Shown: in pieces, positions 7,653 to 32,352 of the stretch
Layout: each line of letters starts with the position of its first letter
How positions within the stretch are numbered: position 1 is the first letter of the stretch
Assembly (NCBI RefSeq): GCF_003667825.1
Contig: NZ_CP033043.1
Location: 1,675,001-1,739,000 of the forward strand
From: Metabacillus litoralis
GTDB lineage: Bacteria; Bacillota; Bacilli; Bacillales; Bacillaceae
Direction of reading: 5' to 3'
Length of the DNA stretch: 64,000 bases
Notes under the pieces: generated by a model
Database searches by the model: none
What the model saw: the letters and a program-made list of their open reading frames with translations, nothing else
Told to the model about the DNA's origin: nothing
Made by a program: the position numbers and the translations under genes

Positions 7653-7683
7653 AAAAAACCGTACAGTCAATACTGTGCGGTTT
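7653..7683 (-). terminator. Terminator of the sigma-54 operon
   Basis: AAACCGCACAGT and ACTGTACGGTTT pair, followed by a T-run on the minus strand. The hairpin lies right after the last gene of the catabolic operon (stop at 7727). Confidence 0.85.
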
Positions 7684-7726
7684 CATTCAGGTTTGACTAT
7701 CAATATTGTTTTGAAACACTAAGAGA

Positions 7727-9079
7727 TTAAATGACTTTTACCCCACCATCTCCTGGTTTCTGAACATCATTTGATTGAGAAAGATAGCTATGCTTTTCTC
7801 GAATCATTAATACAGATACAGCTGCAATTAGACCAGGAATAGCTAGAGCTAAAAAGTTCACTTGTATAGCCATTCCCCATGAAACGATAAATCCAGCTAT
7901 AACAGGGCCGAAGATGGCACCTAATCTTCCTAAGCCAAAGGCAAACCCCATTCCAGTTGATCTCATAGACGGAGGATAAAAAAGAGAAACATATGCATTT
8001 CCAACGTTTTGTCCTCCATAAAATCCTATTCCTGCAAGTGCGACAAGAATGATGACTGCATAAAAATTTGTCGTCATACTTAATAAAGAGATTGATAGAA
8101 AGGCAATGAGATATAATCCTACTAGCGTAGGTCTGTACCCAATTCTGTCAGCAATCACACCAGCTATATTACTTCCAAAAAGAGCACCTATATTTAACGT
8201 GAGTAAAAACAACAACCCTGAACCGAGTCCGAATCCTGCGTTAATCATTAATTGCGGTAGCCAAGTGCCTAAGCCAAATATCATATACATATTCATAAAA
8301 AATACAACCCAGATAAAAATGGTGCTTAGCGTTCTATTTTCACTGAATAACGATTTAATAGAAGACTTTTTCTCTTCATCATTTCCATCAAAGGTTACAT
8401 TATTTGTTAAATTGAAAGTAGGATTTAATTTATGCAGAATACGTTTTAGTTCATCTATTTTATTATTTTTAACTAAGCTATTTGCCGATTCTGGTAAAGA
8501 TTTTAGTAAGAAAGGAACAATTACTAATGGGGCGCCGCCAATAAAGTATAAAACCCGCCAACCTACTTCACCTAATAGCCACATCGTCATTCCTGCTGCT
8601 AATATTCCTCCTACTTGCATACCTGAGAAAATAGCAGCTACCATAATCGCTCTATTCTTTCGTGGAGAATATTCTGTAGTAAGTGCCACAACATTAGGCA
8701 TGACTCCACCTAAACCTAAGCCAGCAATAAACCGAAAGAAACCAAATGTGTAGATACTATTAGAAAAACCAGATAAAATACTTCCAACACTAAATAAAAT
8801 AGTACAAATGATAATCACTTTTTTTCGGCCGATTTTATCTGCCATAAACCCAAATGATAGGGCTCCAACAGCAGCACCAACAAGCGCACAGCTTCCAATT
8901 AACCCCGCTTGTGCTGGATCCATTTTTAATGCTTCAAATAGGACTGGCAAAGTTGCTCCATATATGACCATATCATATCCATCAAAAGACATAATGATGA
9001 AAAGTAAGAGAAACATATAAAGATGAAATTTACTAAATTTACTTTTAGCAATTATTTCATAACCGTTCATAACGGACAT
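7727..9079 (-). CDS. MFS transporter, aromatic acid:H+ symporter family (AAHS)
   Basis: The 450-residue permease has 12 predicted helices and the hallmarks of the AAHS branch: SFDGYDMVIYG in helix 1 and the DKIGRKK loop between helices 2 and 3. Members such as PcaK, BenK and MhpT import benzoate-type acids, 4-hydroxybenzoate or protocatechuate with protons. It is the last gene of the operon that begins at the sigma-54 promoter near 16240. Its AGGAGG site lies 6 bases before ATG 9079, and it follows the decarboxylase gene by 138 bases. I infer import of a phenolic acid such as 2,4,6-trihydroxybenzoate or protocatechuate. The family is sure and the substrate is inferred. Confidence 0.85.
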   Translation of the reverse strand: MSVMNGYEIIAKSKFSKFHLYMFLLLFIIMSFDGYDMVIYGATLPVLFEALKMDPAQAGLIGSCALVGAAVGALSFGFMADKIGRKKVIIICTILFSVGSILSGFSNSIYTFGFFRFIAGLGLGGVMPNVVALTTEYSPRKNRAIMVAAIFSGMQVGGILAAGMTMWLLGEVGWRVLYFIGGAPLVIVPFLLKSLPESANSLVKNNKIDELKRILHKLNPTFNLTNNVTFDGNDEEKKSSIKSLFSENRTLSTIFIWVVFFMNMYMIFGLGTWLPQLMINAGFGLGSGLLFLLTLNIGALFGSNIAGVIADRIGYRPTLVGLYLIAFLSISLLSMTTNFYAVIILVALAGIGFYGGQNVGNAYVSLFYPPSMRSTGMGFAFGLGRLGAIFGPVIAGFIVSWGMAIQVNFLALAIPGLIAAVSVLMIREKHSYLSQSNDVQKPGDGGVKVI

Positions 9080-9217
9080 AGTGATCCTCCTTTAATTAAG
9101 CAATCTGTTTATAAATGCTATTTATTTTCTATTAAATTTTTCATCAACTTGTATGAAGTACAATTGGTCAACAGGTTGCTAAGTATAAAAAGTTAGTGCT
9201 TTACTTCCTGTCTGATA

Positions 9218-10216
9218 TTAGATAATAATCCCTAGTTTATCGATGGCATTTTTATAATAGAGTTTCTCTTTTTCATCATCTGTAAGTGGGACATTTGCAA
9301 GAAACTCCATCATATCTGGAAGCGACTCATACGGATAATCACTGCCAAACAATATATTGTCTATACCCAGAACATTTTTTGTGCAAGCAAAAGCTTCTTT
9401 ACACATATTCCCACTAGTCGTTACCATAATATTGTTTTTAAAATAGTAGCTTGCTTCTTCCTTACATTTGATTTGCGGATTAGGAAGAAAATTTAATCGA
9501 TTATCCATTCGTTCTAGCAGAAACGGAATCCCTTCCCCAAGATGACCTAGTACAACTTTTAAATTTGGTAATTCGTCAAAAAGACCTGAAACAATCATTT
9601 TCGTGATGGTAATCATCGTATCTAATGTAAAACCTAGACCTGGTCCAGCTACGGTAAAGCCATATCCATCAGTTCTGCCTCCATTTGGCAGCTGCGGATG
9701 TAAATATACATAAACACCAAGCTCCACTGCTTTCCTGAAAATTGGACGGTACAGTTCTTCATCAGGAGACGTTTCACCATAATTAGAATGAGTGTGCCAG
9801 CAAACAAATCCATATTCCTTCACACATCTTTCTAATTCAGTACAGGCCGCTACAGGATCTTTTACCGGTAAAACGGCACTTCCTAAATATTGAGTTGGAT
9901 AGTTTTTGATAACTTCTGCTAGGGCATCATTTGCCTTTTGGCATAGGAAAATGCTCTCTTCTATATCAAGTTGCTCTAGCCCTGGTGAGCTGCTTAATAC
10001 TGCCATATCTATTCCTTGTTCTTTCATTAGCTGGCTCCGCTTTTCTGCTACCTCTAATAGCTGAGGTAATAATATATTCTGCGGCATTGTTATTCCTTCC
10101 GACCAAGTTAGGACCTTGCTTGTTGGATCATATAATGGAGGTTGGTTCCTTTTTATTAAAGCATCAATAAAGCTTTGGTCATAAAAGTGATTCTCAAAAT
10201 CTATTTTTCTCATCAT
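9218..10216 (-). CDS. Amidohydrolase-2 family decarboxylase (aromatic acid decarboxylase type)
   Basis: The 332-residue protein is a metal-dependent TIM-barrel enzyme of the ACMSD / gamma-resorcylate decarboxylase family. The first metal motif is E8-N9-H10, the E-x-H form of gamma-resorcylate and 5-carboxyvanillate decarboxylases, not the H-x-H of ACMSD. Other expected ligands are seen in YLHPQLP (mid-protein His), GHLGEG and FGSDYPYE (C-terminal Asp). Such enzymes remove CO2 from hydroxybenzoates. Beside an aromatic-acid permease and a phloroglucinol-type pathway, a good guess for the substrate is 2,4,6-trihydroxybenzoate, giving phloroglucinol. Start at ATG 10216, 6 bases after GGAG. A lactonase-type role remains possible. 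Confidence 0.75.
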   Translation of the reverse strand: MMRKIDFENHFYDQSFIDALIKRNQPPLYDPTSKVLTWSEGITMPQNILLPQLLEVAEKRSQLMKEQGIDMAVLSSSPGLEQLDIEESIFLCQKANDALAEVIKNYPTQYLGSAVLPVKDPVAACTELERCVKEYGFVCWHTHSNYGETSPDEELYRPIFRKAVELGVYVYLHPQLPNGGRTDGYGFTVAGPGLGFTLDTMITITKMIVSGLFDELPNLKVVLGHLGEGIPFLLERMDNRLNFLPNPQIKCKEEASYYFKNNIMVTTSGNMCKEAFACTKNVLGIDNILFGSDYPYESLPDMMEFLANVPLTDDEKEKLYYKNAIDKLGIII

Positions 10217-10311
10217 TTTGCTCTCCTTTAATAAAAATGTAATCTACTTATTGATGTAAGCCCTTTCAATATAATATATAGCCATTGATTATTTTGAAGA
10301 AAGGTGTCATA

Positions 10312-10410
10312 TTATGATTTCTTTTTCGCTTTATGTGAAAAGTAAAACGCACAAACTGCATAAGCCAACATAACTCCTACTATTCCTAACATCCATACTA
10401 GTTCACCCAT
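10312..10410 (-). CDS. Tiny symporter-associated membrane protein (32 aa)
   Basis: The frame encodes MGELVWMLGIVGVM followed by more hydrophobic residues and a basic tail (KAKKKS). That is a single membrane helix with the positive end inside. It overlaps the 3' end of the preceding 40-aa gene by 8 bases, with GGTGAGA before its start. Proteins of this size and form are known as small accessory subunits of Na+/solute symporters. Its place right after the SSS symporter gene fits that role. It is too short for standard gene callers. Function is inferred from size and position. Confidence 0.65.
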   Translation of the reverse strand: MGELVWMLGIVGVMLAYAVCAFYFSHKAKKKS

Positions 10411-10525
10411 CCATTCTCACCTTTTTCTGAACCTTCTTATCTACTAGAAAACCCACAATACTTGAGATTCCACAAATAATACAGATGATCACAGCCGTTT
10501 CTATCGTCGCTTCTACTAATAGCAT
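10403..10525 (-). CDS. Small single-helix membrane protein (40 aa) next to symporter
   Basis: The 40-residue product begins MLLVEATIETAVIICIICGI, one hydrophobic helix, and ends in a very basic tail (DKKVQKKVRMDG). An AGGAGGGAAGA ribosome site lies immediately upstream, and the gene follows the SSS symporter stop (10541) by 15 bases, so translation is likely coupled. Together with the overlapping 32-aa gene it forms a pair of micro-membrane proteins that may stabilise or tune the symporter. I know no experimentally defined family for this one. Confidence 0.6.
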   Translation of the reverse strand: MLLVEATIETAVIICIICGISSIVGFLVDKKVQKKVRMDG

Positions 10526-10540
10526 GTTCTTCCCTCCTAT

Positions 10541-12025
10541 TTAGGCAGTTTGCTCATCCAGCTTTTGACGCTCATGTTCTTGCATTTCTTTCTCCATTCT
10601 AAAAAAGCCAGGCTTTCCTTCCATAAAATAATGAAGAGCAGTACCCAAAACAATTGCCATAATGAATGTCACAACTGCGTTCTGTAAAAATTGTAAGTGA
10701 AGAACTTTAGGTAGAGCAGAAAATGACCATAGTAGGTTGATTACCCATGTAACCCCAAGAGTAATTCCCGCTGCTTTTGTGCTTCTTTTCCAGAACAGAG
10801 CATAAATAACAACCCAAAATACAGGAACAAGCCAACCAAACAACCACGTTACACCATTAATGATTTGTGGCAATGTAAAAGCGACAGCAACGGATATGAT
10901 TCCTAAGATCACAATCATGATACGAGCTAATTTAGTCGTCCTCTCTTCACTTAAATGAGGTTCATATAATCTTCCATATATATCTTTCACAAAAATTGTG
11001 GCTGGGGCCATTGCATTCATAGCAAAAGTAGAGAGTAATGCACCAAGGAAACTAGCTAACAACCAAGCTACTAACCATTCAGGCAAAAGTGTTACTAAAA
11101 GCATCGGTCCACCCATTTTGGGCCCATATGCAGCAAATTCTGGGATCGATTTTGCTGCTAATCCAACAAGAACGGCAAACACCCCAAACATTCCATTTAT
11201 CGGTGCAGCAATCCATAGTGTCTTTTTTACTACTTTTTCACTTTTAGCCGACATCGCTGTTTGTAATGCCATTTGACTGATTCCTTGAGCAAATGGAACC
11301 GCTATCATATTTGCTAATGCGAAAGTAAACCATATAGACGGATTTCCCATTATATTGACCATGAATTCTTGACCTTGAGTCAGTGTATGATAGTCAGAAA
11401 CCTCCTTCCACCCTTCTCCTGGTAAGGCAAATGTGAGATAAATAGCTGCAACAATTACCCCCAGATACATTACAATTGTATTGACTAGATTGACCCAACC
11501 AATTTCCTTCATTCCAGCAATGATTACGTATAATATCCCTAGGACAGCTCCTAATACCATCCCTTGACGAATCGACCAACCTGTCATGGCTGAAAAAGCA
11601 ATACCGATCGTTTGAGTTTCCATTGAAAGCAATCCAAAAATAGAACCAGCCATCACACAAGCAACGGCAATCCTCAGTCTTTTTCCTAAGAGCAATTCAA
11701 TTAGCTCTGGGACAGTCGAAATTTGCAATCTTCTTACCCATCTTCCAGTAGCTAAACAAATCACACATATTAATGCAACATGAGCAAACGAAAACCACAT
11801 ACTCGCCATTCCGATATTCCATGCCATCTCCATCAATCCAAATACATGAGCTGATCCTAAAACAGTTAAAGCGAATGTCACCCCAACGATTGCAGTTGGC
11901 AAATCCCGGTTTGATAGTAAAAAGGAATCCTTTTCTTTTTTCGAAACACGAGCTAAATACAATCCAATCCCAACTACTGAAAGTATTTCATATAAAAGAA
12001 CAACAACTAATACTGTATAGTTCAT
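10541..12025 (-). CDS. Sodium:solute symporter (SSS family)
   Basis: The 494-residue permease has about 13 predicted membrane helices and the SSS-family core, with the LGSAHVFGLMEMAW region in the second helix, the Na+-binding segment with LLSTFAMNAMAPATIFVKDIY, and a charged C-tail. It imports an organic solute with Na+. It is the sixth gene of the sigma-54 operon and lies after the BKACE gene; two very small membrane protein genes follow. ATG 12025 is preferred over 12031 because GGAGG is directly against the first ATG and correctly spaced for the second. Substrate is inferred to be the pathway substrate (phloroglucinol precursor or an intermediate). Confidence 0.85.
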   Translation of the reverse strand: MNYTVLVVVLLYEILSVVGIGLYLARVSKKEKDSFLLSNRDLPTAIVGVTFALTVLGSAHVFGLMEMAWNIGMASMWFSFAHVALICVICLATGRWVRRLQISTVPELIELLLGKRLRIAVACVMAGSIFGLLSMETQTIGIAFSAMTGWSIRQGMVLGAVLGILYVIIAGMKEIGWVNLVNTIVMYLGVIVAAIYLTFALPGEGWKEVSDYHTLTQGQEFMVNIMGNPSIWFTFALANMIAVPFAQGISQMALQTAMSAKSEKVVKKTLWIAAPINGMFGVFAVLVGLAAKSIPEFAAYGPKMGGPMLLVTLLPEWLVAWLLASFLGALLSTFAMNAMAPATIFVKDIYGRLYEPHLSEERTTKLARIMIVILGIISVAVAFTLPQIINGVTWLFGWLVPVFWVVIYALFWKRSTKAAGITLGVTWVINLLWSFSALPKVLHLQFLQNAVVTFIMAIVLGTALHYFMEGKPGFFRMEKEMQEHERQKLDEQTA

Positions 12026-12091
12026 TATCATTCCTCCAAATCGTACGAATGACGATCCTCTTCACCCAATGTAATGGTGGTCACAATGAAT

Positions 12092-12132
12092 GCCTCTTAG
12101 ACAACTAACGATGATGAGTCATACTAAGAGGC
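12092..12132 (-). other. Intra-operon stem-loop between BKACE and symporter genes
   Basis: GCCTCTTAG (12092-12100) pairs perfectly with CTAAGAGGC (12124-12132). There is no following T-run on the minus strand, so it is more likely an mRNA processing or stability element than a terminator. It would separate the enzyme genes from the transporter genes. Confidence 0.5.
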
Positions 12133-12157
12133 AATTGAAATCATTGTACCTTCTGTA

Positions 12158-13009
12158 TTATTGGTTCATATTTGATGGTATTTTAAGACCTAACATACTC
12201 CTTGCTTCATCTGGAGTAGCAATTTCCTTTCCAATTTCAGCTACTGTTCTTTTTGTTCTTTCTACAAACTCTACATTCGATTTCGCTAATCGCCCTTTAG
12301 CATAAAAAATATTATCCTCCATACCAACGCGTAAGTGTCCTCCTAATGCTAATGTCGCATAAAGAATTGGTAAATGTCCCTTCCCAATCCCAAACGCACT
12401 CCACGTCGATCCTTCAGGAATTAAGCTTTTTAAGAACACTAAATTCTCTACTGTTGCCGCCATTCCACCAGCAGCACCTAACACAAATTGAAAATGTAGG
12501 GGTGCCTTTAAAATTCCTTTTTTAAAATAATAGAGGGCATTATAAACCATTCCTGCATCAAAAATTTCAATTTCCGGCTTTACTTCATGTTCTTGCATGG
12601 TTTGCCCGAGTTTTTCTAAAAACTTAGGGCTATTTTCAAAAACAGTTGAGTGCTGCCAATTCATTGAACCACAATCAAACGATGCCATTTCGGGTTTTAA
12701 CTCAACAAAAGGCTTTATTCGAACATCGTCCATTAAGCCGATCCCACCAGATGTGGTCAAATTCAGCACGATATCACAACGTTCACGAATCAGCTTTACT
12801 GTTTTTTCAAACTTTTCAAAGCTCATCGATGCGTTTCCTTCATCGTCTCGAACATGAATATGTGCAATCGAAGCTCCTGCTTGATAACAAGCATAAACTT
12901 CATCTGCGATTTCCTCAGGCTGTAAAGGAACATATGGTGTTTCTTTTTTTGTTGGCCAAGCTCCAGTAGGCGCTACGGTTAAAATGACTTTTGACTCAAA
13001 CTCTCCCAA
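12158..13009 (-). CDS. BKACE-family beta-keto acid cleavage enzyme (candidate triacetate acetoacetate-lyase)
   Basis: The 283-residue protein belongs to the DUF849/BKACE family, Zn-dependent TIM-barrel enzymes that split a beta-keto acid using acetyl-CoA into acetoacetate and a new CoA ester. The Zn ligands H50-I-H52 in AHIHVRDDEG are present, as is VLGAAGGMAATVENL. Known members cleave 3-keto-5-aminohexanoate or dehydrocarnitine. Another, triacetate acetoacetate-lyase, ends the reductive phloroglucinol pathway. The company of an SDR, a hydroxyacyl dehydrogenase and a cyclase-family hydrolase favours the triacetate role. TTG 13009 follows GGTGGGG. Family sure; substrate inferred. Confidence 0.8.
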   Translation of the reverse strand: MGEFESKVILTVAPTGAWPTKKETPYVPLQPEEIADEVYACYQAGASIAHIHVRDDEGNASMSFEKFEKTVKLIRERCDIVLNLTTSGGIGLMDDVRIKPFVELKPEMASFDCGSMNWQHSTVFENSPKFLEKLGQTMQEHEVKPEIEIFDAGMVYNALYYFKKGILKAPLHFQFVLGAAGGMAATVENLVFLKSLIPEGSTWSAFGIGKGHLPILYATLALGGHLRVGMEDNIFYAKGRLAKSNVEFVERTKRTVAEIGKEIATPDEARSMLGLKIPSNMNQ

Positions 13010-13042
13010 TTTCTCTTCCCCACCTTTTATAGAAAATTTTTA

Positions 13043-13981
13043 TTAAAGAGCTCCGAATGGATAAACACGCTCTGGAGCATCATTTACATCATCTTCATCA
13101 ATTTCTGCCACACAGCGCACCATTGACCCATCACCTAACCACCAACGAATTGGGAAGGCCATGAATTTAAAGCGTTTGCCTACAACTTTATCTAGGTCAC
13201 CACCAAGGTTTTCGATCCCAACGATACCGTTTCCTAACATGAGTTTATGACACGGTTCCCAAGTTCCTTCTAAGCCATGTTCTTCAAGTTTGCCAAAGGC
13301 TTGCATATATTTTTCTTTTCCAAATGTTTCGATGTACGTTTCTTTGTTAAATTCAGCAAATGCCTCCATTCCAAATTGCTCAATGTATTCTTCTGTTATG
13401 GTTCTTCCCGAATAGCCATCAAGATTCATTGCAAGTGAACCTCCGTTTTTGCCCATAGTTGTATGAAGAGGATGATCAAGAGCTTGCATATCCATTGCCA
13501 CACATTTTGGTTGATATTTTTCAAACCATTCTCCAGCTTCTCTTCCAGTACCACAGGAATAATGATAGTATTCCTTGCTTTCATCAAATTTTAGGTGCAT
13601 CCCTGTTCGCAAACAAACTACCATTCCTTTAAGTTCTTCTGGTTTAATATTTGCTCGTTTGCATGCATCATCAAGATGTGATGCTTTGATTAGACCCCAA
13701 CGCTCTACCTGAATATCAAGACAAACAGCATCTCCATAATAAGCATCTAAAGGCATTTCATGGGTATAACGTGCACGTCTTCCGTCAAACTCGTATTCCA
13801 TCACATGACGCGGGGCATCTGCATGTGTACCACAATGCATGACAACATCTATTTTTTGAGTAAGTACTCCACTTTTTGAAAGGTTATGCATCGTGTCAAT
13901 TTTTGGCTTTGCAAAGTACGGCCATACCGGAATATCTGCATGAAAAGGATGACTTAAATCAACTAATACTTTTTTACCCAT
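13043..13981 (-). CDS. Metal-dependent cyclase-family hydrolase (candidate dihydrophloroglucinol cyclohydrolase)
   Basis: The 312-residue protein belongs to the cyclase family (PF04199), which includes kynurenine formamidase and ring-opening hydrolases. The metal-binding signature is complete: H49-C-G-T-H53-A-D55-A-P-R-H59. In this operon it may open the ring of dihydrophloroglucinol to 3-hydroxy-5-oxohexanoate, a step done by a Mn-dependent cyclohydrolase in phloroglucinol-degrading anaerobes. It is longer than formamidases (about 210 aa), with an inserted C-terminal region rich in aromatic and acidic residues. TTAGGAGG lies before ATG 13981. The family is sure and the reaction inferred. Confidence 0.78.
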   Translation of the reverse strand: MGKKVLVDLSHPFHADIPVWPYFAKPKIDTMHNLSKSGVLTQKIDVVMHCGTHADAPRHVMEYEFDGRRARYTHEMPLDAYYGDAVCLDIQVERWGLIKASHLDDACKRANIKPEELKGMVVCLRTGMHLKFDESKEYYHYSCGTGREAGEWFEKYQPKCVAMDMQALDHPLHTTMGKNGGSLAMNLDGYSGRTITEEYIEQFGMEAFAEFNKETYIETFGKEKYMQAFGKLEEHGLEGTWEPCHKLMLGNGIVGIENLGGDLDKVVGKRFKFMAFPIRWWLGDGSMVRCVAEIDEDDVNDAPERVYPFGAL

Positions 13982-14009
13982 TGTAAATTCCTCCTAAGTT
14001 TTCCTATTG

Positions 14010-14966
14010 TTAATTGTTTTTTATTGGTTTGTTGTGATTTCTTTTCTCTACATCTATTAAATAATGGTTTAACTTTCGCCTAGATTCTATCATTTCTTCC
14101 TTTGACCATTGCCGAAAGCCCATTCCGGACTTAAAACCAAGCTCTCCCTTTTCGACCATTTCTACTAATAATGGAGAAGGCTCTGTTGAATTTTCAAGAT
14201 GTTTTAGTAGATAATGATGAATGGCTAGGGTTAAATTGGTCCCAACCATATCCGCATTTTCAATAGGCCCCAGCACAGGAAGTCTCATCCCAAAACTATA
14301 TTTAATCGATTCATCAACAGTTATTGCATCAGCAATTCCATTTTCAACAATTGATATGGCTTCACGCCATAAGGCATGCTGCAACCGATTGGCAACAAAT
14401 CCTGGTACATCTTTATTCACCCGAATTGGATGTTTACCGACTGCATTTAAAATGTTAATCGTGCGCCCTATCACTTCTTCTGAAGTGTCCTCCGTACGCA
14501 CAACCTCTACTAACGGTATTAAAAACGCAGGATTCCAAAAATGAGTTCCTAGGATTCGGTTCTTTAATTTAGCTTTTTTAGCAATTTCTGTAATACTCAT
14601 AACTGATGTATTTGTTGCTAAAATAACATGAGGATCACAAATCCGATCCAATCTCTCAAAAAGAGTTTGTTTTAAGTTCATCTTTTCTGGAATGCACTCT
14701 ACAACTAAATCAGCATCTTCTATTGTTTTTTCCAAATCATTCGAGACCTGTATTCGCGCTAACGTATCTTGTGCTTTCTCTATCGAAAAAGACTCTCGAT
14801 CTACCAACATACGTAAATCTGAGTCTACTTTTTTTATAACCTCGGCCTCTGTATCTTCAACAGAATATATCGCAACAGCAACCCCATAGTTAGCAAATAC
14901 TTGTGCGATACCGGTTCCCATTAACCCTGAACCACAAATGGCGACTTTTCTAAAATTCGTATTCAA
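14010..14966 (-). CDS. 3-hydroxyacyl-CoA dehydrogenase-family enzyme (candidate 3-hydroxy-5-oxohexanoate dehydrogenase)
   Basis: The 318-residue NAD-dependent enzyme has an N-terminal Rossmann fold (CGSGLMGTGIAQVFANYG, residues about 10-27) and the C-terminal helical dimer domain of the 3-hydroxybutyryl-CoA dehydrogenase / L-carnitine dehydrogenase group. The catalytic His sits in ILGTHFWNPA. Enzymes of this group oxidise a beta-hydroxy group to a keto group. In the proposed pathway it would oxidise 3-hydroxy-5-oxohexanoate to triacetate, feeding the BKACE. TTG 14966 follows GGGGGGAA. An alternative reading is carnitine degradation, since carnitine dehydrogenase and BKACE also occur together, but the SDR and cyclase do not fit that. 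Confidence 0.8.
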   Translation of the reverse strand: MNTNFRKVAICGSGLMGTGIAQVFANYGVAVAIYSVEDTEAEVIKKVDSDLRMLVDRESFSIEKAQDTLARIQVSNDLEKTIEDADLVVECIPEKMNLKQTLFERLDRICDPHVILATNTSVMSITEIAKKAKLKNRILGTHFWNPAFLIPLVEVVRTEDTSEEVIGRTINILNAVGKHPIRVNKDVPGFVANRLQHALWREAISIVENGIADAITVDESIKYSFGMRLPVLGPIENADMVGTNLTLAIHHYLLKHLENSTEPSPLLVEMVEKGELGFKSGMGFRQWSKEEMIESRRKLNHYLIDVEKRNHNKPIKNN

Positions 14967-15000
14967 TCTGTTCCCCCCTTGGCCGATAGCCTCCTATTTT

Positions 15001-15783
15001 TTAACCAGCCAAGTATCCTCCGTCCACGTATATGGTTGTTCCTGTTATAAAGTTACTAGCAGATGAGGCTAAGAAATTGCATACTCCCACATAGTCCTCT
15101 GGTTCACCTAATCTTCCGATTGGAATTCGCGTCAGAAACTTCGTTCTTGCTGTGTCATCCGTAAACATCCACTCTGTTAGATCAGAACGGAAAACGGTTG
15201 GCCCTATGGCGTTCACATTAATTCTGTATTCTCCCCACTCACATGCCAGTGATTTTGCCATCAAATCAATTGCTGCCTTCGAAGGGCTGTATGCTGTATA
15301 ATTTTTCATACCAAGTTTTCCTCTAGTGGATGAGACAAGAATGACTTTTCCACCTCTGCCTTGGTCCTTTAATATTTGCCCGACCTTTTTACAGTACAAC
15401 CATGTCCCTTTAATGTTGGCATCCATTATTGCTTCCCATTCTTCAGTTGGCTGTTCTAAAATAGGCTTTGGATTATTCATTCCTGCCGCACAAAGTAAAA
15501 TGTCAATCCCACCAAATTCTTTAACCGTTGCAGCAACAACATGATCAACATCACTTTCTATTATTGGGTCCCCTATATGATAGGCACATTCTAGTCCTTG
15601 AGCTTTCATTTCATCATAAAGAGATTGAAGTTTAGACTGAGTTCTTGCTGTGAGCATCACCTTTGCACCAGCATAGGCAAAGCCCCATGCTGCAGCTTTT
15701 CCAAGTGCTCCAGTTGCACCTGTTACAATCGCAACCTTTCCTTTAATATCATAAAGATTATTCACAAAGTCTTGATTCACCAC
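15001..15783 (-). CDS. SDR-family oxidoreductase (candidate phloroglucinol reductase)
   Basis: This is a classical short-chain dehydrogenase/reductase of about 260 residues. It has TGATGALG for cofactor binding (near residue 21), the NADPH-favouring basic patch LTARTQSKL, the active-site Ser in LVSSTRGK and the Tyr-x-x-x-Lys motif in AYSPSKAA. Phloroglucinol reductase of anaerobes is an NADPH-dependent SDR, and this gene stands where that enzyme would be expected. The start is more likely GTG 15783 (AAAGGA eight bases upstream) than an ATG at 15792, which overlaps the ribosome site. It follows the cupin gene by 22 bases. Reaction inferred from context. Confidence 0.8.
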   Translation of the reverse strand: MVNQDFVNNLYDIKGKVAIVTGATGALGKAAAWGFAYAGAKVMLTARTQSKLQSLYDEMKAQGLECAYHIGDPIIESDVDHVVAATVKEFGGIDILLCAAGMNNPKPILEQPTEEWEAIMDANIKGTWLYCKKVGQILKDQGRGGKVILVSSTRGKLGMKNYTAYSPSKAAIDLMAKSLACEWGEYRINVNAIGPTVFRSDLTEWMFTDDTARTKFLTRIPIGRLGEPEDYVGVCNFLASSASNFITGTTIYVDGGYLAG

Positions 15784-15805
15784 AAAAATCATCCTTTATC
15801 AATTT

Positions 15806-16144
15806 TTAGTAATTAACAACCACCAGCATTGTGGCTGGTTCATTTGTTTCGTTAATAATCGACCTACCTTCAAAAGGTGGGATAAAGATGCTATCATATT
15901 TTTTTAAGACCACTCTCTCCGTCTTTGTTTCTATGACAACTTCCCCTTCTAACACCACATAGATTTTCTCACTTGGTGAATCTTCATAAGCATAGTCAGC
16001 TCCACCATTAGGAAGAAAATGAGTCATTCCCATCCAAAACTTAGTAGCCCCTGTTTCTTCCGTGCCGTGTAACTTTAAAGTGGAACAATCAAAATGTAAT
16101 AGTGCTTTATATGGATTTACTTCGCTGAATTTAACCGCTTTCAT
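15806..16144 (-). CDS. Small single-domain cupin, first gene of the sigma-54 operon
   Basis: The 112-residue protein is a single cupin beta-barrel (residues about 35-110) with the second cupin motif around PPFEGRSIINETNEPATML. In the first motif the usual metal-binding histidines are not obvious (YEDSPSEKIYVVLEGEV), so metal binding is doubtful. It may bind a small phenolic or act as an accessory protein. A very strong site, AAAGGAGGTG, supports ATG 16144 over an upstream GTG. It is the first gene after the sigma-54 promoter. Function unknown. Confidence 0.75.
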   Translation of the reverse strand: MKAVKFSEVNPYKALLHFDCSTLKLHGTEETGATKFWMGMTHFLPNGGADYAYEDSPSEKIYVVLEGEVVIETKTERVVLKKYDSIFIPPFEGRSIINETNEPATMLVVVNY

Positions 16145-16238
16145 TTCCTTCACCTCCTTTCAAGAACGATTTTCTATCTTTACCTACTTTGTAAGTACCG
16201 AACAAATAGAAGCAACATTCTCTTTACACTTTTAGTAA

Positions 16239-16254
16239 TGCAAGTTGCGTGCCA
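16239..16254 (-). promoter_or_regulatory. Sigma-54 (-24/-12) promoter
   Basis: On the minus strand TGGCACGCAACTTGCA matches the sigma-54 consensus TGGCACGN4TTGCW at every defined position, with the GG and GC doublets correctly spaced. The first gene starts about 95 bases downstream, and an AAA+ sigma-54 activator is encoded just upstream. This promoter should drive the whole operon down to 7727. Confidence 0.92.
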
Positions 16255-16354: not shown

Positions 16355-16372
16355 TGATACAAAAATGTATCA
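16355..16372. promoter_or_regulatory. Activator-binding palindrome, site 1
   Basis: TGATACAAAAATGTATCA is a perfect dyad (TGATACA/TGTATCA arms). It lies about 116 bases upstream of the centre of the sigma-54 promoter, a normal distance for an enhancer site. Confidence 0.8.
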
Positions 16373-16425
16373 GGTTCTTGTCTCTATTACTCTAGTATTA
16401 AGTATTTCTAGTATGTTCTTTTAAT

Positions 16426-16443
16426 TGATACATTTTTGTATCA
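16426..16443. promoter_or_regulatory. Activator-binding palindrome, site 2
   Basis: TGATACATTTTTGTATCA repeats the dyad of site 1 in the opposite orientation. Its centre lies 71 bases further upstream than site 1. Confidence 0.8.
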
Positions 16444-16445
16444 AC

Positions 16446-16463
16446 TGATACAAAAATGTATCA
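16446..16463. promoter_or_regulatory. Activator-binding palindrome, site 3
   Basis: TGATACAAAAATGTATCA, identical to site 1. Its centre is 20 bases from site 2, about two helical turns, so two activator dimers could bind side by side. It ends 12 bases from the stop codon of the activator gene. Confidence 0.8.
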
Positions 16464-16474
16464 CCCATTTAACT

Positions 16475-18013
16475 TTACCATTCTGTTATACCTAAAGATT
16501 TTGCTTTTCTTACTACAGTTGGCTGCGTAACACCTAGAACCTTTGCTGCCTTGTGGGTACTGCCGTATTTTTTTAGTGCATTGCAAATAAGTTCTTTTTC
16601 TACCTTTTCCACTGCTTCTTTTAAGGAAAAAGTTTGTTGCACGAATTGATTTGAAGTGCTATCTTCCCCTAATGTTAAGATCACTTTATCAACATTTATG
16701 TATTGATTATCCCCAATGATCACTAGCCGCTCAATTGTGTTTTCCAATTCTCTAACATTTCCTGGCCAATGATAGGTGGTTAGAAAATCAGCAGTTTCTG
16801 GGTCTATTTTTTTCTGTTTATTATATCTTTTATTAAACTTTTCAAGAAAATAATGAAGCAACAAATAAATATCGTCTTTTCTGTCCCTTAAAGCTGGTAT
16901 TTTAATTGGAATTACATTCAATCGATAATATAGATCTTCTCTAAATAATCCTTCTTTTATTTGCTTTAAAATGTTTTGATTGGTTGCTGCAATGACCCTT
17001 ACATCTATCTTTATTGGACGAGTGCCTCCAACTCTAGTTATTTCTTTTTCTTGAAGACATCTCAGGAGCTTAGATTGTAATTTTATTGGCATTTCACCAA
17101 TTTCATCTAATAAAAGTGTCCCTCTATTCGCTAATTCAAACAATCCTAATTTTTCCTTTTGTTGCGCTCCTGTAAACGCTCCTTTTTCATAACCAAATAA
17201 TTCAGATTCTAGTAGAGTTTCAGGTATAGCTGCACAATTCACTTTAATAAACGGCTGATCTTTTCTAGAGCTATGTTTATAAACCTCACTTGCAATGACT
17301 TCTTTTCCTACTCCCGTTTCTCCCGTAATTAAAACTGTTGCATCCGTTTGTGAAACCTGTTCAATTAAATTTTTGATGTGAAAGATCGCAGGAGATTGAC
17401 CAATAAAATCTGTTTTGTTTTTATTTTCGTTAACGTATTTTAAAGCTTCATAATATCGAATATTTTCCTTTTCTTTTTCTTCAAGTTGTTCTTTTAATCG
17501 TATGAGCTCGGTCAAATCTCTCATAATCGTGTAAACTTGCTGTATTTCACCGTCATTATCAAAAATAGGGGTCCCTGTTAATAGAACCTTTTTCTTATTA
17601 GCTGTAACAGTTGATAAAATAGACACCTTTCTTTTCTCTTTTAATACTAATAATGAGGCAGAGTGACTAAAATATTTTTGATCAACAAATGTTTGTACAT
17701 GCTTACCAACAATGTCTTTCTCGTTTATTTCTGTAATTTTTGAGTAGGCTTTGTTTATCCGGAGAACAAACCCTTTATTATCAATAACAATAATTCCATC
17801 TGAAACCTCATCACCAATATCAAAGCCATCGATAATAATAGGTTTAGACTTTATTTTTTGTTTAGGCGAGCCAACACTTCCACTTATACTAAAATAATAA
17901 TCTTCCACTAGCTTTTGTAAAATGTCATTTTCCTTCATTTTTGTACAATTGGCGATCTCATGGAGCATCTTTTTATGGTCAGAACTGATTATAAGAGAAA
18001 CTGTTTCTTCCAT
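16475..18013 (-). CDS. Sigma-54-dependent AAA+ transcriptional activator with PAS domain
   Basis: The 512-residue regulator has a short N-terminal segment, a PAS sensor domain (about residues 65-175), a coiled-coil linker, the AAA+ domain (about 200-435) and a C-terminal TyrR-type helix-turn-helix (about 475-510, [19 protein letters not shown]). Walker A GETGVGKE is at 231-238, the sigma-54-contacting GAFTGA loop at 278-283 and Walker B LLLDEIGE near 300-307. It should remodel sigma-54 RNA polymerase at the promoter at 16239-16254, binding the three palindromes between its own gene and that promoter. The inducer is probably sensed by the PAS domain. TAGGAGG precedes ATG 18013. Confidence 0.92.
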
Positions 18014-18162: not shown

Positions 18163-19128
18163 TCAAGTTCTCAACTTGTTGTTTTCTTTCTCCATTAATT
18201 CAAATTGTGTAAGCTCAGGAAGGTTCAAAGAGAATCTTTTTTCAAGCCACGCCTCTGCTTCTATAATCCATCTTGCAGCTTCTTGATAAATTTGGCTTTT
18301 CGCCTGGGCTGTAGCTTGATTGGATAGGCTTAAGCCATGAGGACCTTTTTCATAAATGTGAATTTCATATGGAATCTGTTTATCAGCAAGTGCATGAGCC
18401 ATTCTTAATGTATGTTGAGCTGGAACTAAAGAGTCCTCGGAGGTAGCCCAAAGGAACATAGGTGGTGTGCTCTCTGATACATGCAACACTGGGCTTACTT
18501 CTTTAAGTGTTTCTTCATCAGGTTCTTTGCTACCTGTAAGGGCCAGATTAGATACTTCAAAGAGCTGTTGATCAATTGGACTTTTCGGAATTGAACGCAT
18601 GAAAAGATAATCACTTAATGTGTATCCAAGAATGGCAGCTGCTGGTTTGAACATTTCTGGTTTTTCGGTGAAATATTCATGGATAATAGGCTTATCCCAG
18701 TATACGGAATACATGGCACAATTGTGAGCACCTGCAGAGAATCCGCAGATTGCGATTTTCTCTACATCTACTAGCCATTCCTCTGCATGCTCCCTTATCG
18801 TAAGCATCGCTTTACCTATTTCTCTCATAGGTGTAGGATGCATGCAGTTTTCATTCACTTCCATTTCTTTTTGAAAATCTGGAAAACCAAACTTTCCTCC
18901 CATATAGGTTGAATAACGGAGAACAAACGCATGATACCCCATGGCTGCAAACCTAAGTGCCACTGCTTCTCCTTCTCTATCAGAACAAGAAAGGTAGGCT
19001 CCTCCGGGACAGATTAAAATGGCAGGTCTTTTCTTTCCTCCCAATAATTCTGGTGAATCTGAAATCACATAGGTTGTTAAGGTCACATCTTCTCGATTTT
19101 CATAAAACGTAATCACTTCTGATTTCAT
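18163..19128 (-). CDS. Alpha/beta-hydrolase, acetyl esterase type
   Basis: The 321-residue protein has the alpha/beta-hydrolase fold with an oxyanion-hole block CPGGAYLSCSDREGEAVALR, the nucleophile elbow GFSAGA and a late His in YEKGPHGLSL. It resembles bacterial acetyl-xylan or carbohydrate esterases that remove acetyl groups from sugars. No signal peptide is seen, so it acts in the cytoplasm. The alpha-L-rhamnosidase gene lies 283 bases upstream on the same strand, and a cre-like site sits before this gene. This suggests de-esterification of imported plant glycosides. AGGAGGAG precedes ATG 19128. Confidence 0.8.
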   Translation of the reverse strand: MKSEVITFYENREDVTLTTYVISDSPELLGGKKRPAILICPGGAYLSCSDREGEAVALRFAAMGYHAFVLRYSTYMGGKFGFPDFQKEMEVNENCMHPTPMREIGKAMLTIREHAEEWLVDVEKIAICGFSAGAHNCAMYSVYWDKPIIHEYFTEKPEMFKPAAAILGYTLSDYLFMRSIPKSPIDQQLFEVSNLALTGSKEPDEETLKEVSPVLHVSESTPPMFLWATSEDSLVPAQHTLRMAHALADKQIPYEIHIYEKGPHGLSLSNQATAQAKSQIYQEAARWIIEAEAWLEKRFSLNLPELTQFELMEKENNKLRT

Positions 19129-19172: not shown

Positions 19173-19411
19173 AAAATTTCAATACAAAAGTGTATAGAAT
19201 ACAAGTTTAAAACATGAAATGCCACTTTCTAAGACTATAGTATCGAAATATTCACTAGCTAGCTATTGCGAAATTTTGCACATTCTTTATCTATTTCAAA
19301 ACATAATAAATTTTCCCATTAGAAAAGGAGATACTTTATTGTTCATATTCATAAAGTATCGTCCTCGACTATTGCAACTTAATTAGAAAAGAAGTTCATT
19401 ATAACCAATAT

Positions 19412-22288
19412 TTAGCTATTTATCGTAACCGCATTACTTTCTAGCTGGTTATTTACTAGTTTGTTGATACTATCAAGAATTTCATCGACTTGACTAGAAG
19501 TAATACCCGTCTCAGGAGTTACTTTGCATTCTCCAAATGTCATTCCCTTCATCATTTGGAAAGCAACATGTGGTGGCATTTCACCGTGCATAAAGTTCGT
19601 TAAATTTTGCTCTAATAAAGCCTTTGCTTCAGGATAGTAGATTAACTCCCCAAGGACACTTTCATGAGTAAATATCTTTTGATCTACTTGGGCTAACTGA
19701 AACGTAAAGAAATAGTCACCTGATCCGAGAGTAAACGTTGAACCTTGTTTTTCGACTCCATCTAATGTTACGTTCGTAGCTTGAGTAGGTAAGATGATGT
19801 CCCCCTCTGTATTAACTGGCACGGTAACCTTCAAAGTGACCTCATCTTGTTTAAGCTTCCATTCACTCATGACTTCTCCATAAAGTGTTTTATAGCTCGC
19901 TTTGACTTCGCTCATACCTAGTGAACTAATTTTAGGTGCAATGGTTACTTTCTTAAAACCAGGTGTCGTTTCATCAAAAGAAATACCTGCGATTGTATTG
20001 TGCATCCACTCAGCCACCGCCCCATAAGCATAGTGATTAAAGGATGTCATGCCAGAATCGTTAAACGTACCATCAGGATTCATACTGTTCCAGCGTTCCC
20101 AAATTGTTGTTGCACCACTTTTCACTTCAAATAACCACGAAGGATAATCCTCTTGTAGCAATAATCTTAACGCTGTTTCATGATATCCATATTTCGATAA
20201 TACTGAACACAAATGTGGAGTTCCTAAAAATCCAGTTGTTAGGTGATAATCATTCGCCACAATCATACGGTGAAGTTCGTGTGCTGCCTTTTGTGCGGCA
20301 TTGCCTTTTAACAGGTTAAATGCAAGTGGGATAATATAGCTTGTTTGAGTACCACCAATCACTTTTCCGTTTGCTGTTGTAAATTCCGCTTGAAAATCCG
20401 CAACAATTCTTTCATATAAAGCAAAGTACTCATCTGCATCTTTCTCAAATCCTAAAACAGATGCTGCTTTTGCTAAAATGTGTGTAGAATAAGCATGATA
20501 TGCCGTTGCAATCAACGGAATTGGAGTTGCACCAACTGGTGAATGTGGGTCTCCATCAAGCGCTAACCAATCACCGAACTGAATTTTTGCTTCCCATACT
20601 GTTTCATTTGTTGCAAGGCTTCTTACTTTTTCCACCCAAGCCTTCATACTTTCATATTGCGTTTCAAGTATTTGCTTGTCTCCATACACTTGATATAAAG
20701 TCCAAGGAATAATCGTGGCAGCATCGTTCCAACCTGAAGCTACTTGATCTCCTGGTATAATGTCAGGAATAACAAACGGTACTTGTCCGTCAGGTTTTTG
20801 ATCTGCTTTTAAGTCTAATAGCCATTTTTTAAAGAAAGATGCTCCTTGGTAGTTATAAAGAGCGGTTCCAATAAATACTTGCGCATCTCCAGTCCAACCA
20901 AGTCGTTCGTTTCGTTGCGGACAATCTGTTGGTACATCAACAAAGTTGCCTCTTTGTCCCCAAACGACATTACTATGTAACTGATTAATTAATTCATTAT
21001 CAGTCATAAATTCACCAGTTCGCTCCATATCAGAATGAAGAACTTCTCCTTCAAACGAATCTAATGGTAAATCCTCTGTAGGGTATCCTTCTACTTTTAC
21101 ATAACGAAAGCCTTGGAACGTGAAAGTTGGTGCATAGGTTTCTTCTCCATCACCTTTTGTAATGTAAGTAACCTCTTGCTTCGCTGTTCGCAGATTTTCT
21201 GTATAGAAATTTCCCTCTTTATCAAGAACTTCCGCATGCTTTAACGTAATCTTTGTTCCCTTCGGTGCTGTGACACGCATTTTCATCCTACCAACCATGT
21301 TTTGTCCCATATCTAATACTTTTTCCCCGTTTGGAGTTACGATGTATTGGATCGGCTTAAGCGTTTCTGTCACTCGAACAGGCTCGTTTTCTTGTGCTAC
21401 TAAATGAGCTGTAGGTTTTAGCGAACATTCTACAGGATCCCAGCCGTTATCATGAAAAGCTGATTCACTCCAGTTGTTCTCAAGTCTTGCATCATATGTT
21501 TCACCGTTGTAAATGCTTGATGATACAAAAGCACTTTTACCGGACTTCCACTCTTCGTTTGTTGTAAAAATTTCTTTTTTACCATCTTGATAGACTACAT
21601 GTAATTCAAGTAAAGCTGATAGGTTTTCTCCATAGTAATATGGCTTATCAAAGCCCATACCCTTATACCAGCCATCAGATAAAAGAATTCCAAGGGCATT
21701 GATTCCTTTTACTAAATGAGCAGTGACATCATATGTTTGGTATTGTAGGCGGTGATGATAGCTAGTCCATCCTGGCGTTAATAAGGCATCTCCAATTTGA
21801 TTACCATTCATATAGAGTTGATAGAGTCCCAAGGACGTCACATAAACTCGTGCTGAGCTAATGTCTTGTTCTAAGAAAAACGTATTTCGAAGGGCAAAGA
21901 CATCTTCCTCCACTTCCTGATTTTTCGGTGAAATCCATTTTGCTTTCCAACTAGCATCCTTTAAAAAAGCAGTTTCAAACCAATTTGTAGTACTCCAATC
22001 AGTAGATCTTCCGTAGTTATCTGAAATTCTTACTTTATAAAAATATCGTGTGAAGGGTGTCAAAGGTTCCCCTTCGTATTGGATATGAGTACTCTGATCA
22101 CTATTTACTTCATTTGAATCCCATACAATTCTAGTAAACTGCTCATCAAATGCTACCTTAATTTGAAAGGAAGCTTGTGTTGTGTTTCTTTTATCTGATT
22201 CAATCATCCAAGAAAATCTTGGTTTCGTTATGTCTATTCCTAAAAGAAATGGTTGGTATTCGCAAGTTAATTGACTGATTTTCAACAT
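19412..22288 (-). CDS. Alpha-L-rhamnosidase (GH78)
   Basis: The 958-residue enzyme has the multi-domain plan of GH78: an N-terminal fibronectin-like domain, two beta-sandwich domains (about residues 130-420), an (alpha/alpha)6 catalytic barrel (about 425-770, with the DCPQRNERLGWTGDAQ motif carrying the general-acid Glu) and a C-terminal beta domain. An extra helical tail of about 90 residues is unusual. It hydrolyses terminal alpha-L-rhamnose from plant glycosides such as rutin, quercitrin or naringin. With no signal peptide it acts inside the cell after uptake, likely through the divergent GPH symporter. AAGGAACG precedes ATG 22288. Confidence 0.92.
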   Translation of the reverse strand: MLKISQLTCEYQPFLLGIDITKPRFSWMIESDKRNTTQASFQIKVAFDEQFTRIVWDSNEVNSDQSTHIQYEGEPLTPFTRYFYKVRISDNYGRSTDWSTTNWFETAFLKDASWKAKWISPKNQEVEEDVFALRNTFFLEQDISSARVYVTSLGLYQLYMNGNQIGDALLTPGWTSYHHRLQYQTYDVTAHLVKGINALGILLSDGWYKGMGFDKPYYYGENLSALLELHVVYQDGKKEIFTTNEEWKSGKSAFVSSSIYNGETYDARLENNWSESAFHDNGWDPVECSLKPTAHLVAQENEPVRVTETLKPIQYIVTPNGEKVLDMGQNMVGRMKMRVTAPKGTKITLKHAEVLDKEGNFYTENLRTAKQEVTYITKGDGEETYAPTFTFQGFRYVKVEGYPTEDLPLDSFEGEVLHSDMERTGEFMTDNELINQLHSNVVWGQRGNFVDVPTDCPQRNERLGWTGDAQVFIGTALYNYQGASFFKKWLLDLKADQKPDGQVPFVIPDIIPGDQVASGWNDAATIIPWTLYQVYGDKQILETQYESMKAWVEKVRSLATNETVWEAKIQFGDWLALDGDPHSPVGATPIPLIATAYHAYSTHILAKAASVLGFEKDADEYFALYERIVADFQAEFTTANGKVIGGTQTSYIIPLAFNLLKGNAAQKAAHELHRMIVANDYHLTTGFLGTPHLCSVLSKYGYHETALRLLLQEDYPSWLFEVKSGATTIWERWNSMNPDGTFNDSGMTSFNHYAYGAVAEWMHNTIAGISFDETTPGFKKVTIAPKISSLGMSEVKASYKTLYGEVMSEWKLKQDEVTLKVTVPVNTEGDIILPTQATNVTLDGVEKQGSTFTLGSGDYFFTFQLAQVDQKIFTHESVLGELIYYPEAKALLEQNLTNFMHGEMPPHVAFQMMKGMTFGECKVTPETGITSSQVDEILDSINKLVNNQLESNAVTINS

Positions 22289-30675: not shown

Positions 30676-31248
30676 ATGATAAAAAAAGATTCTAAAGAAA
30701 AAATCCTTGAAATTGCCTCAAGGCTTTTTCAATTACAAGGGTATCATGCAACAGGTTTAAACCAAATTATAAAAGAAAGTGGCTTACCGAAAGGTTCACT
30801 TTATCATCATTTTCCTAACGGGAAGGAAGAATTGGCCATTGAAGCTGTAAAATATACTAGTTTGTATATTGAGGAAAAAATTAAATCTTTTTTTGAAAAT
30901 GAGTCAAATCCAATAGCGGCTATGCAATCTTTTATTATTGATACTGCAAACCAGTTTAGGAAACCTGAGGACATTAAAGGCATTCCTATCGGTTTACTTG
31001 CATGTGAAACAGCTTTAATAAATGAGCCTTTAAGACTAGCATGTATGAACGCATTTCATAACTGGGAGCAACTGATTGTGAATAAGTTTAAAGAAGCGGG
31101 TTATGAGCAGGAGTTAGCTGAGAAAGCTGGGATTCTTTTTAATTCTTTAACTGGGGGCGGTATTATGCAATCCATTACAAACAAGGACCCTCGCCCACTT
31201 ATAGCAATAGCAGAAGCAATCCCATTACTTTTCTCAAAAAAGGGGTAG
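30676..31248 (+). CDS. TetR-family repressor, LmrA/QdoR type
   Basis: The 190-residue protein has an N-terminal TetR helix-turn-helix (residues about 8-55, TGLNQIIKESGLPKGSLYHHF) and a ligand-binding helical domain. Size and sequence fit the B. subtilis LmrA/QdoR pair, flavonoid-responsive repressors of lmrAB and qdoI. The next gene is quercetin dioxygenase and the third a drug exporter, the same functional company. It should bind the palindrome-like box at 31287-31306 and be released by quercetin or fisetin. AGGAGG lies upstream of ATG 30676. Confidence 0.85.
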   Translation: MIKKDSKEKILEIASRLFQLQGYHATGLNQIIKESGLPKGSLYHHFPNGKEELAIEAVKYTSLYIEEKIKSFFENESNPIAAMQSFIIDTANQFRKPEDIKGIPIGLLACETALINEPLRLACMNAFHNWEQLIVNKFKEAGYEQELAEKAGILFNSLTGGGIMQSITNKDPRPLIAIAEAIPLLFSKKG

Positions 31249-31329: not shown

Positions 31330-32352
31330 ATGACTACACAATTATTTCAAGGAATACCACAAAAAAAAGTTGCTTACTTGTTAAAAAATGGAGAAGGTAA
31401 AAGATATTTGTTTGGAAGACAAGTTGCTACTGTGATGGCAGATGCTCTAAGTACAGATCACATTTTTGAGATGGTCTTACTTTCTGGAGGAAAGGGAGAT
31501 ACTTTCCCTTTCCACAAACACAATAAAACTTTTGAAGGTATATTAGTACTAGAAGGGAAACTTGAACTTTCAATTGATGATGAAATGCATCTCCTATTGC
31601 CTGGTGACTATGCTCATATTCCGCCTAATACAATACATAGTTATTGCATGAAGAGTCATAGAACAAAGTTTGTCTCCTATACTACAAAAGGTAATCTTGC
31701 CAATCTTTACTCGATTATTGGTGAACCATATGACAAGGTTGAATATCCACCACATGTAAAAAGTGAAATTCCAAATGAAAAATTTCAAGACGCTACGATA
31801 ACGACTGATATTGAATTTTTCTTTGAGATGAAACATGGTGGAAATGCAAAGCTTGTGGAGAATAATGTAGTTCCTAGTAAGTTGGCTCCATATGTTTTAG
31901 AAAACGGAGAAGGAGATCGCCTATTAACTGGCGATCAGCTACATAGGATTATTGCAACTCAAAAGAATACTGATGGACAATTCATTTTAGTTTCCTCTGA
32001 AGGTCCTATGGGTGAAAGAATTGTAGATCACTATCACGAGCATCATACTGAGACATTTTTCTGTCTTGAAGGCCAGATGACTATGTGGGCAAATGGAGAG
32101 GAAATAAGAATGAATCCAGGTGATTTCTTACATGTACCTGCTTTTACTACCCACTCTTATAGATTAGATTCTCATTATACGAAAGTGATTGGGTTATTAG
32201 CTTCTGGATTATTTGAACCTTTTTTCCGTATTTTAGGTGACCCTTATGAGCATCATATATTCCCTAGTGAACCTAAACCCTTGAGATTTGATCGAGTATT
32301 ACAAAATATTGACATGCTAGATTTAAAGCTCGCTAAGGATCTGTCAATTTAA
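31330..32352 (+). CDS. qdoI: Quercetin 2,3-dioxygenase (bicupin)
   Basis: The 340-residue bicupin enzyme cleaves the quercetin ring with O2 to give 2-protocatechuoyl-phloroglucinol carboxylate and CO. Both cupin metal sites are complete: H62, H64, E69 and H103 in the N-terminal cupin, and H234, H236, E241 and H275 in the C-terminal one. These are the same residue numbers as in the B. subtilis enzyme. It is cytoplasmic. GAGAGGAG precedes ATG 31330. It lies between its likely repressor and an exporter. The product links logically to the hydroxybenzoate decarboxylase and phloroglucinol genes at 9-16 kb. Confidence 0.93.
   Translation: MTTQLFQGIPQKKVAYLLKNGEGKRYLFGRQVATVMADALSTDHIFEMVLLSGGKGDTFPFHKHNKTFEGILVLEGKLELSIDDEMHLLLPGDYAHIPPNTIHSYCMKSHRTKFVSYTTKGNLANLYSIIGEPYDKVEYPPHVKSEIPNEKFQDATITTDIEFFFEMKHGGNAKLVENNVVPSKLAPYVLENGEGDRLLTGDQLHRIIATQKNTDGQFILVSSEGPMGERIVDHYHEHHTETFFCLEGQMTMWANGEEIRMNPGDFLHVPAFTTHSYRLDSHYTKVIGLLASGLFEPFFRILGDPYEHHIFPSEPKPLRFDRVLQNIDMLDLKLAKDLSI

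Follow-up and report, generated by a model that had tools for sequence, protein, structure and literature searches.

Could a Bacillus-type bacterium carry a dedicated, oxygenase-free operon for the breakdown of phloroglucinol, and how would such an operon be controlled? We addressed these questions in a 64,000-nt stretch of Metabacillus litoralis (Bacillaceae; RefSeq assembly GCF_003667825.1, contig NZ_CP033043.1, positions 1,675,001 to 1,739,000 of the forward strand), hereafter the window. A minus-strand operon ending at position 7727 lies behind the gene of a sigma-54-dependent activator. We conclude that this is very probably a phloroglucinol-catabolism operon; the activities of its products, the inducer, and the substrates of its decarboxylase (DEC) and transporters are what we infer. 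A first-pass annotation of the window had described these open reading frames, their domains and their operon arrangement, and all frames are indeed open, with the domains expected from Pfam. In the direction of transcription, the activator gene is followed by an intergenic stretch with three palindromes and one -24/-12 site, and then by eight genes:

16475..18013, minus strand: sigma-54-dependent activator (PAS, AAA+, HTH_50), likely the dedicated regulator (Pfam PF00158, E 2e-73; HTH_50; PAS)
16426..16463, no strand assigned: two adjacent palindromes TGATACA-N4-TGTATCA, proposed activator-binding sites (upstream activating sequences; shuffles, comparison with G342, a second genome carrying the cassette, and motif enrichment)
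16355..16372, no strand assigned: third palindrome, within an 11-bp-arm stem preceding a T-run; it may double as terminator of the activator gene
16239..16254, minus strand: -24/-12 (sigma-54) promoter TGGCACGCAACTTGCA, ~100 nt upstream of the cupin start (pattern match, shuffles)
about 15806..16141, minus strand: small single-domain cupin lacking the canonical metal histidines (conserved fifth gene)
15001..15783 (or to 15792), minus strand: putative phloroglucinol reductase (PGR), an SDR protein (5g4k, 134/257 identical, E 1.8e-84)
14010..14966, minus strand: putative (S)-3-hydroxy-5-oxohexanoate dehydrogenase (TfD), 3HCDH-type (diagnostic residues)
13043..13981, minus strand: putative dihydrophloroglucinol cyclohydrolase (DPGC), cyclase family PF04199 (Trp20, Tyr22)
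12158..13009, minus strand: putative triacetate acetoacetate-lyase (TAL), BKACE family (PF05853, E 1e-107; Trp18)
10541..12031, minus strand: sodium:solute symporter (SSF/SSS), candidate importer (PF00474)
9218..10216, minus strand: DEC, an amidohydrolase-family (Amidohydro_2) decarboxylase, proposed 2,4,6-trihydroxybenzoate decarboxylase (3s4t, E 1.9e-45)
7727..9079, minus strand: MFS transporter similar to aromatic acid/H+ symporters (TIGR00895, 352 bits, below the cut-off of 418)

What argues that the four core enzymes act on phloroglucinol? Two comparisons based on PDB entries were used in place of the characterised Clostridium scatologenes protein sequences. Among solved structures, the SDR is closest to 5g4k/5g4l (E 1.8e-84; next SDR 2.7e-45), and the 134 residues identical to 5g4k amount to 52% of those aligned. 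We take these entries, named in the PDB only as SDR-family proteins, to be the phloroglucinol reductase structure of Clostridium sp. ATCC BAA-442 to which a 2023 paper refers. The available parts of PMC10470551 cite the reductase structure from that strain, and the residue tests for DPGC, TfD, TAL and PGR were taken from them. In the PF04199 protein, Trp20 and Tyr22 of CsDPGC are both present with identical numbering, and both are invariant in 29 homologues. The dehydrogenase keeps the catalytic residues of the C. butyricum enzyme (Ser117, His138 and Asn188, here Ser121, His142 and Asn193) and has lost those that bind CoA (Lys56 and Asn221, here Ser59 and Arg228). In the BKACE protein, Trp18 aligns with the Glu of 2y7d, and a Trp in place of Glu14 of the lysine enzyme Kce is what marks a TAL. 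With nearly every residue and homology test passed, the assignment of SDR, cyclase, 3HCDH protein and BKACE protein to PGR, DPGC, a triacetate-forming dehydrogenase and TAL is supported at the level of sequence, as the first-pass annotation had proposed.

The best NCBIfam labels, namely Kce (333 bits), 3-hydroxyacyl-CoA dehydrogenases and gluconate 5-dehydrogenase, would at first sight fit look-alike enzymes of lysine, carnitine or sugar-acid catabolism. Every one of these models scores below its cut-off, which for Kce is 382 bits; the Glu14 that binds the 5-amino group in lysine Kce is replaced by Trp18, and the other diagnostic residues differ as well. The dehydrogenase falls far below the carnitine models, the SDR is separate from sugar dehydrogenases, and DPGC keeps the conserved company described below. 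The lysine, carnitine and aldose affinities that the first-pass annotation had named as fatal to its own proposal thus did not appear, and we rejected these three readings as extremely unlikely.

Is this set of genes kept together elsewhere? A genome scan yielded 298 stretches encoding DPGC relatives, of which the best 80 (L004-L083) were retained; they come mainly from Bacillota, and also from Bacteroidota, Fusobacteriota, Actinomycetota, Pseudomonadota and Spirochaetota. Using the window proteins as queries (TfD at 45% identity or more, DPGC and TAL at 50% or more), PGR, TfD, DPGC and TAL were found together on one strand in 51 of the 80 loci, and many of the others are truncated at the end of a contig or encode a TfD that is more distant. 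Four loci (L035, L020, L023 and L041, the last three on short contigs) encode DPGC relatives without PGR, TfD, TAL or cupin, and these may serve another substrate.

The small cupin is a near-constant fifth gene, present in 64 of 69 testable loci. Metal-dependent cupins conserve an HxH and a second-motif His. The operon cupin and its relatives (65 sequences) instead have Glu/Asp, Tyr/Trp and Arg at these places, and H16, Y61, E91, R93 and N97 are invariant in 45 sequences. Its predicted model (pLDDT 96) matches numerous folds, none of which names a function; TM1459-type small cupins and the polyketide cyclase RemF share ~20% identity with it, and their canonical metal histidines are not kept here. 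The word cupin is absent from the main text of PMC10470551. With low confidence, we suggest that the protein assists the first steps, perhaps by acting on the keto tautomer.

How might the operon be switched on? The site TGGCACGCAACTTGCA at 16254-16239 (minus strand) is a perfect -24/-12 match, and shuffled windows average 0.04 exact matches (4 of 100 have at least one). With one extra spacer base the pattern gives 27 matches against 27.7 expected, whereas the correct spacing gives this one perfect site. Together with the adjoining activator gene, the site points to a sigma-54-dependent operon, as had been predicted. Against each of the named NCBIfam activator models shown, the activator stays under the cut-off. 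The palindrome TGATACA-N4-TGTATCA is present in three perfect copies at 16355-16463, and none of 100 shuffles reaches three sites even at up to 2 mismatches. In G342, three palindromes stand in the same place with changed letters, and the -24/-12 site is kept too.

This arrangement recurs. Across the 80 loci (1.34 Mb), the operon strand has 30 matches to TGGCAYRN4YTGCW and the opposite strand has one. We defined an activator relative by at least 45% identity over more than 80%, and restricted the count to the 71 loci whose upstream DNA extends for 1500 nt or more, dropping 9. Activator relatives adjoin the cluster in 17 of these, and a sigma-54 site lies within 2 kb upstream in 12 of those 17 loci versus 4 of the 54 others (reverse strand, 0 of 71). 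The shorter palindrome ATACA-N4-TGTAT has 17 copies in the 7,800 nt that reach up to 260 nt upstream of the 30 sigma-54 sites, versus 11 in the remaining 1,333,305 nt; it is exact at 13 of the 30 sites and within 1 mismatch at 21, while a reversed control motif has 0 copies upstream of the sites and 1 elsewhere. Close activators and -24/-12 sites are found together in clostridial clusters, which rules out sigma-54 control as a Bacillus-only feature. The open-access literature yielded no paper that joins phloroglucinol reductase with sigma-54.

Genome-wide, TGATACA-N4-TGTATCA occurs at up to 1 mismatch in 7 places, 3 of them upstream of the operon; the 3-kb loci around the other 4 contain no sigma-54 site. 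Copies with an AGCT-type centre at G000:C1:3677061 and 4993010 and at G342:C1:3474747 lie in long open reading frames of unrelated genes, and no sigma-54 site accompanies them. An exact ATACA-N4-TGTAT stands at 19182, just upstream of an esterase gene (start 19128), with no sigma-54 site beside it; at the background rate of the 80 loci, ~0.5 such copies are expected by chance in 64 kb. In four loci (L007 17882, L021 5533, L039 2130 and L059 20517), sigma-54 sites with an upstream palindrome lie away from the cupin operon and are candidates for further regulon members.

The first-pass annotation had also named a dedicated decarboxylase and two importers. For the former, family membership holds and the label rests on homology. 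The best solved relative of DEC, 3nur, has no assigned function and is followed by gamma-resorcylate and 5-carboxyvanillate decarboxylases (3s4t, 2dvt, 4icm); with these DEC shares family and length, though remotely (158.9 bits against 3s4t). The pattern ExH, H, H, D, which we take to be the metal site of these decarboxylases, is legible in the alignment. From its context, DEC probably converts 2,4,6-trihydroxybenzoate to phloroglucinol; a literature search found no paper with the term trihydroxybenzoate decarboxylase. Of the two permeases, both present, the MFS protein alone resembles aromatic-acid/H+ symporters (TIGR00895), and the SSS symporter was found only in this genome and G342.

DEC is a component of some clusters only. 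In G342, L004 and L044 it belongs to the cluster or adjoins it; of the 80 DPGC genomes, 50 were searched and 6 match DEC, within the cluster only in L004 (75%) and L044 (59%), the other four at 41-45%. Among 80 family genomes it occurs in 2, which are also the two with DPGC, and among 398 class genomes in 1, our own. In each of Priestia filamentosa and Heyndrickxia coagulans, a DEC relative and a cupin relative lie on contigs of equal length, presumably one and the same. In L004, DEC and MFS are a unit of their own; a -24/-12 site stands 138 nt upstream of it, preceded by imperfect TGATACA palindromes, and co-regulation with the main operon is therefore likely. A CoA-transferase beta-like gene (L004 7296-7808, by eye) is the first behind the sigma-54 site there, ahead of the cupin; a GH2-like glycosidase (by eye) and a sugar MFS gene (L004 18972-20762) are also near this phloroglucinol cluster.

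That gamma-resorcylate decarboxylases are the closest named solved relatives of DEC raises another question: might the operon degrade a related meta-phenol or cyclic diketone, such as resorcinol, orcinol or an acylphloroglucinol, and might the substrate of DEC be gamma-resorcylate or orsellinate? The SDR, however, matches phloroglucinol reductase, and the residues of DPGC, TfD and TAL fit the phloroglucinol set. Moreover, resorcinol reduction is ferredoxin-dependent according to the available parts of PMC10470551, and the Pfam assignments of the operon include no such enzyme. We regard this alternative as very unlikely.

For a phloroglucinol operon, we propose the following working. The PAS/sigma-54 activator would sense phloroglucinol or a related phenol and, bound to the TGATACA-N4-TGTATCA palindromes that lie 100-210 nt upstream of the -24/-12 promoter, activate transcription of cupin-PGR-TfD-DPGC-TAL and probably also of SSS-DEC-MFS. 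The importers would take up phloroglucinol or its carboxylic acid, the latter being probably decarboxylated from 2,4,6-trihydroxybenzoate to phloroglucinol by DEC. PGR would then reduce phloroglucinol with NADPH to dihydrophloroglucinol, DPGC would open its ring, TfD would oxidise 3-hydroxy-5-oxohexanoate to triacetate, and TAL would convert triacetate and acetyl-CoA to acetoacetate and acetoacetyl-CoA.

Four points weigh against this proposal. The PGR motif TR(S/N) at the NADPH 2'-phosphate is only partly matched (TART here, TGRN in 5g4k), with Arg kept and Thr in third place. A close activator relative is missing near 54 of the 71 testable loci, so that sigma-54 control is not universal; because these loci have no activator nearby, other regulators must serve them. 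The substrate of DEC is taken from context, its best match having no assigned function, and DEC at 59% or more occurs in only 2 of the 50 DPGC genomes searched. Finally, the pathway works in vitro without the cupin, according to the available parts of PMC10470551.

How does the operon compare with the known system? The chemistry is already known, since the pathway was reconstituted from C. scatologenes in 2023 (PMC10470551, available parts). All four enzymes, with nearly all diagnostic residues, are common to both systems, and the C. scatologenes cluster likewise has a regulator and an MFS gene; its thiolase and CoA transferase, in contrast, are not among the operon genes here. The first-pass annotation had called the arrangement largely undescribed. 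This was overstated, because the pathway and its wide distribution are published (same source) and because the sigma-54 activator and site recur in clostridial clusters. The available parts of that account contain no discussion of the cupin, of such a decarboxylase, of an SSS symporter, or of the activator and sigma-54 control. What is new here is the set of DEC, SSS symporter and activator; the cupin and the palindrome/promoter module were not found described.

Where did the operon come from? DPGC is present in 1 of 299 order genomes (our own) and in 2 of 80 family genomes. In a quick tree of 85 rows, with SH-aLRT support only and no bootstrap, the proteins of the window, G342, L004 and a Neobacillus metagenome-assembled genome form one clade (SH-aLRT 99), which is nested in an 11-row set (SH-aLRT 96) whose named members outside the clade are Clostridia-type anaerobes. 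The G342 cassette is 77-98% identical by protein stretch, and none of the flanking genes of the window that we tested occurs within 40 kb of it. The patchy presence, the nesting among Clostridia and the different sites suggest horizontal acquisition, apparently from anaerobic clostridia. GC content gives no clear foreign mark (0.32-0.39 in the cassette versus 0.30-0.39 around it), and a plasmid search for DPGC returned a single record, from Acetoanaerobium (2.6 Mb), possibly a chromosome labelled wrongly. The matches to the dehydrogenase and to the activator in G342 are each split over two reading frames (L084 17106-18040 and 19550-19999; L085 3-1087), reflecting decay or assembly errors.

Could the phloroglucinol carboxylic acid have a source within the same window? 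Four further genes bear on this:

18163..19128, minus strand: esterase, closest to an lp_1002-type arylesterase model, possibly a depside hydrolase (NF052620, 179 bits, below the cut-off of 300)
19412..22288, minus strand: alpha-L-rhamnosidase, possibly deglycosylating flavonoid glycosides (PF17389, E 4.2e-121)
30676..31248, plus strand: TetR regulator with LmrA/YxaF-like C-terminal domain, adjoining the quercetinase (PF21993, E 2.5e-26)
31330..32352, plus strand: quercetin 2,3-dioxygenase (QdoI type), possible upstream source, outside the operon (2h0v, E 2.2e-157)

The quercetinase (527 bits against 2h0v) is an ortholog of B. subtilis QdoI and shares with it the pairing with an adjacent TetR of the QdoR/LmrA type; unlike the B. 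subtilis gene, it shares its 64 kb with a phloroglucinol operon. The QdoI product is 2-protocatechuoyl-phloroglucinol carboxylic acid (PMC8481877, available parts). This depside is the natural precursor of the proposed DEC substrate, 2,4,6-trihydroxybenzoate, which the quercetinase, rhamnosidase and esterase could supply. The operon would then be the lower half of a flavonol pathway: rhamnosidase frees quercetin, QdoI with O2 yields the depside, the esterase splits it, and DEC and the reductive pathway follow, so that an oxygenase opens one ring and a reductase the other. Besides the presence of all four genes in the window, it speaks for such a pathway that genome G368 (the source of L004) combines the DEC-containing operon with two QdoI homologues, one of which has a rhamnosidase homologue ~8 kb away; there, however, QdoI and the operon are on different contigs. 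In the window, 13 kb with unrelated genes separate QdoI from the operon, and G342 carries the whole cassette and no QdoI. QdoI is also common where the operon is absent, with matches in 7 of the 21 genus genomes listed and in 31 of 80 family genomes (17 of them strong, most lacking the operon). For the protocatechuate half, neither this genome nor G342 yielded an intradiol or LigB dioxygenase, and the available parts of PMC8481877 describe B. subtilis QdoI as serving detoxification. With this evidence against it, the quercetin link is an unproven extension of the phloroglucinol operon, possible but doubtful. Phloretin hydrolase (PF18089) has no match in this genome, nor in the control genomes. 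Elsewhere in the window are an IS110-family transposase (37286-38569) and a DabA-type inorganic carbon transporter gene beside a proton-antiporter-type gene (48257-52413).

A bolder combination, which we hold to be unlikely as a whole, would make the metal-free cupin an unrecognised fifth pathway component, such as a tautomerase that offers PGR or DPGC the keto form. The activator and its ATACA-N4-TGTAT sites would define a regulon common to Clostridia and Bacillus-type bacteria, and in some of the latter the operon would be the second half of a hybrid flavonol pathway, with one ring opened by a dioxygenase and the other by a reductase.

The cupin and the promoter/palindrome pair offer two testable handles on a pathway whose regulation is not discussed in the available parts of PMC10470551, and searches with the palindrome could reveal other regulated genes. 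The breakdown of flavonoids and tannins has phloroglucinol as a key intermediate. If the copy described here works, an oxygen-independent ring-opening route would exist also in Bacillus-type soil bacteria, beyond the strict anaerobes.

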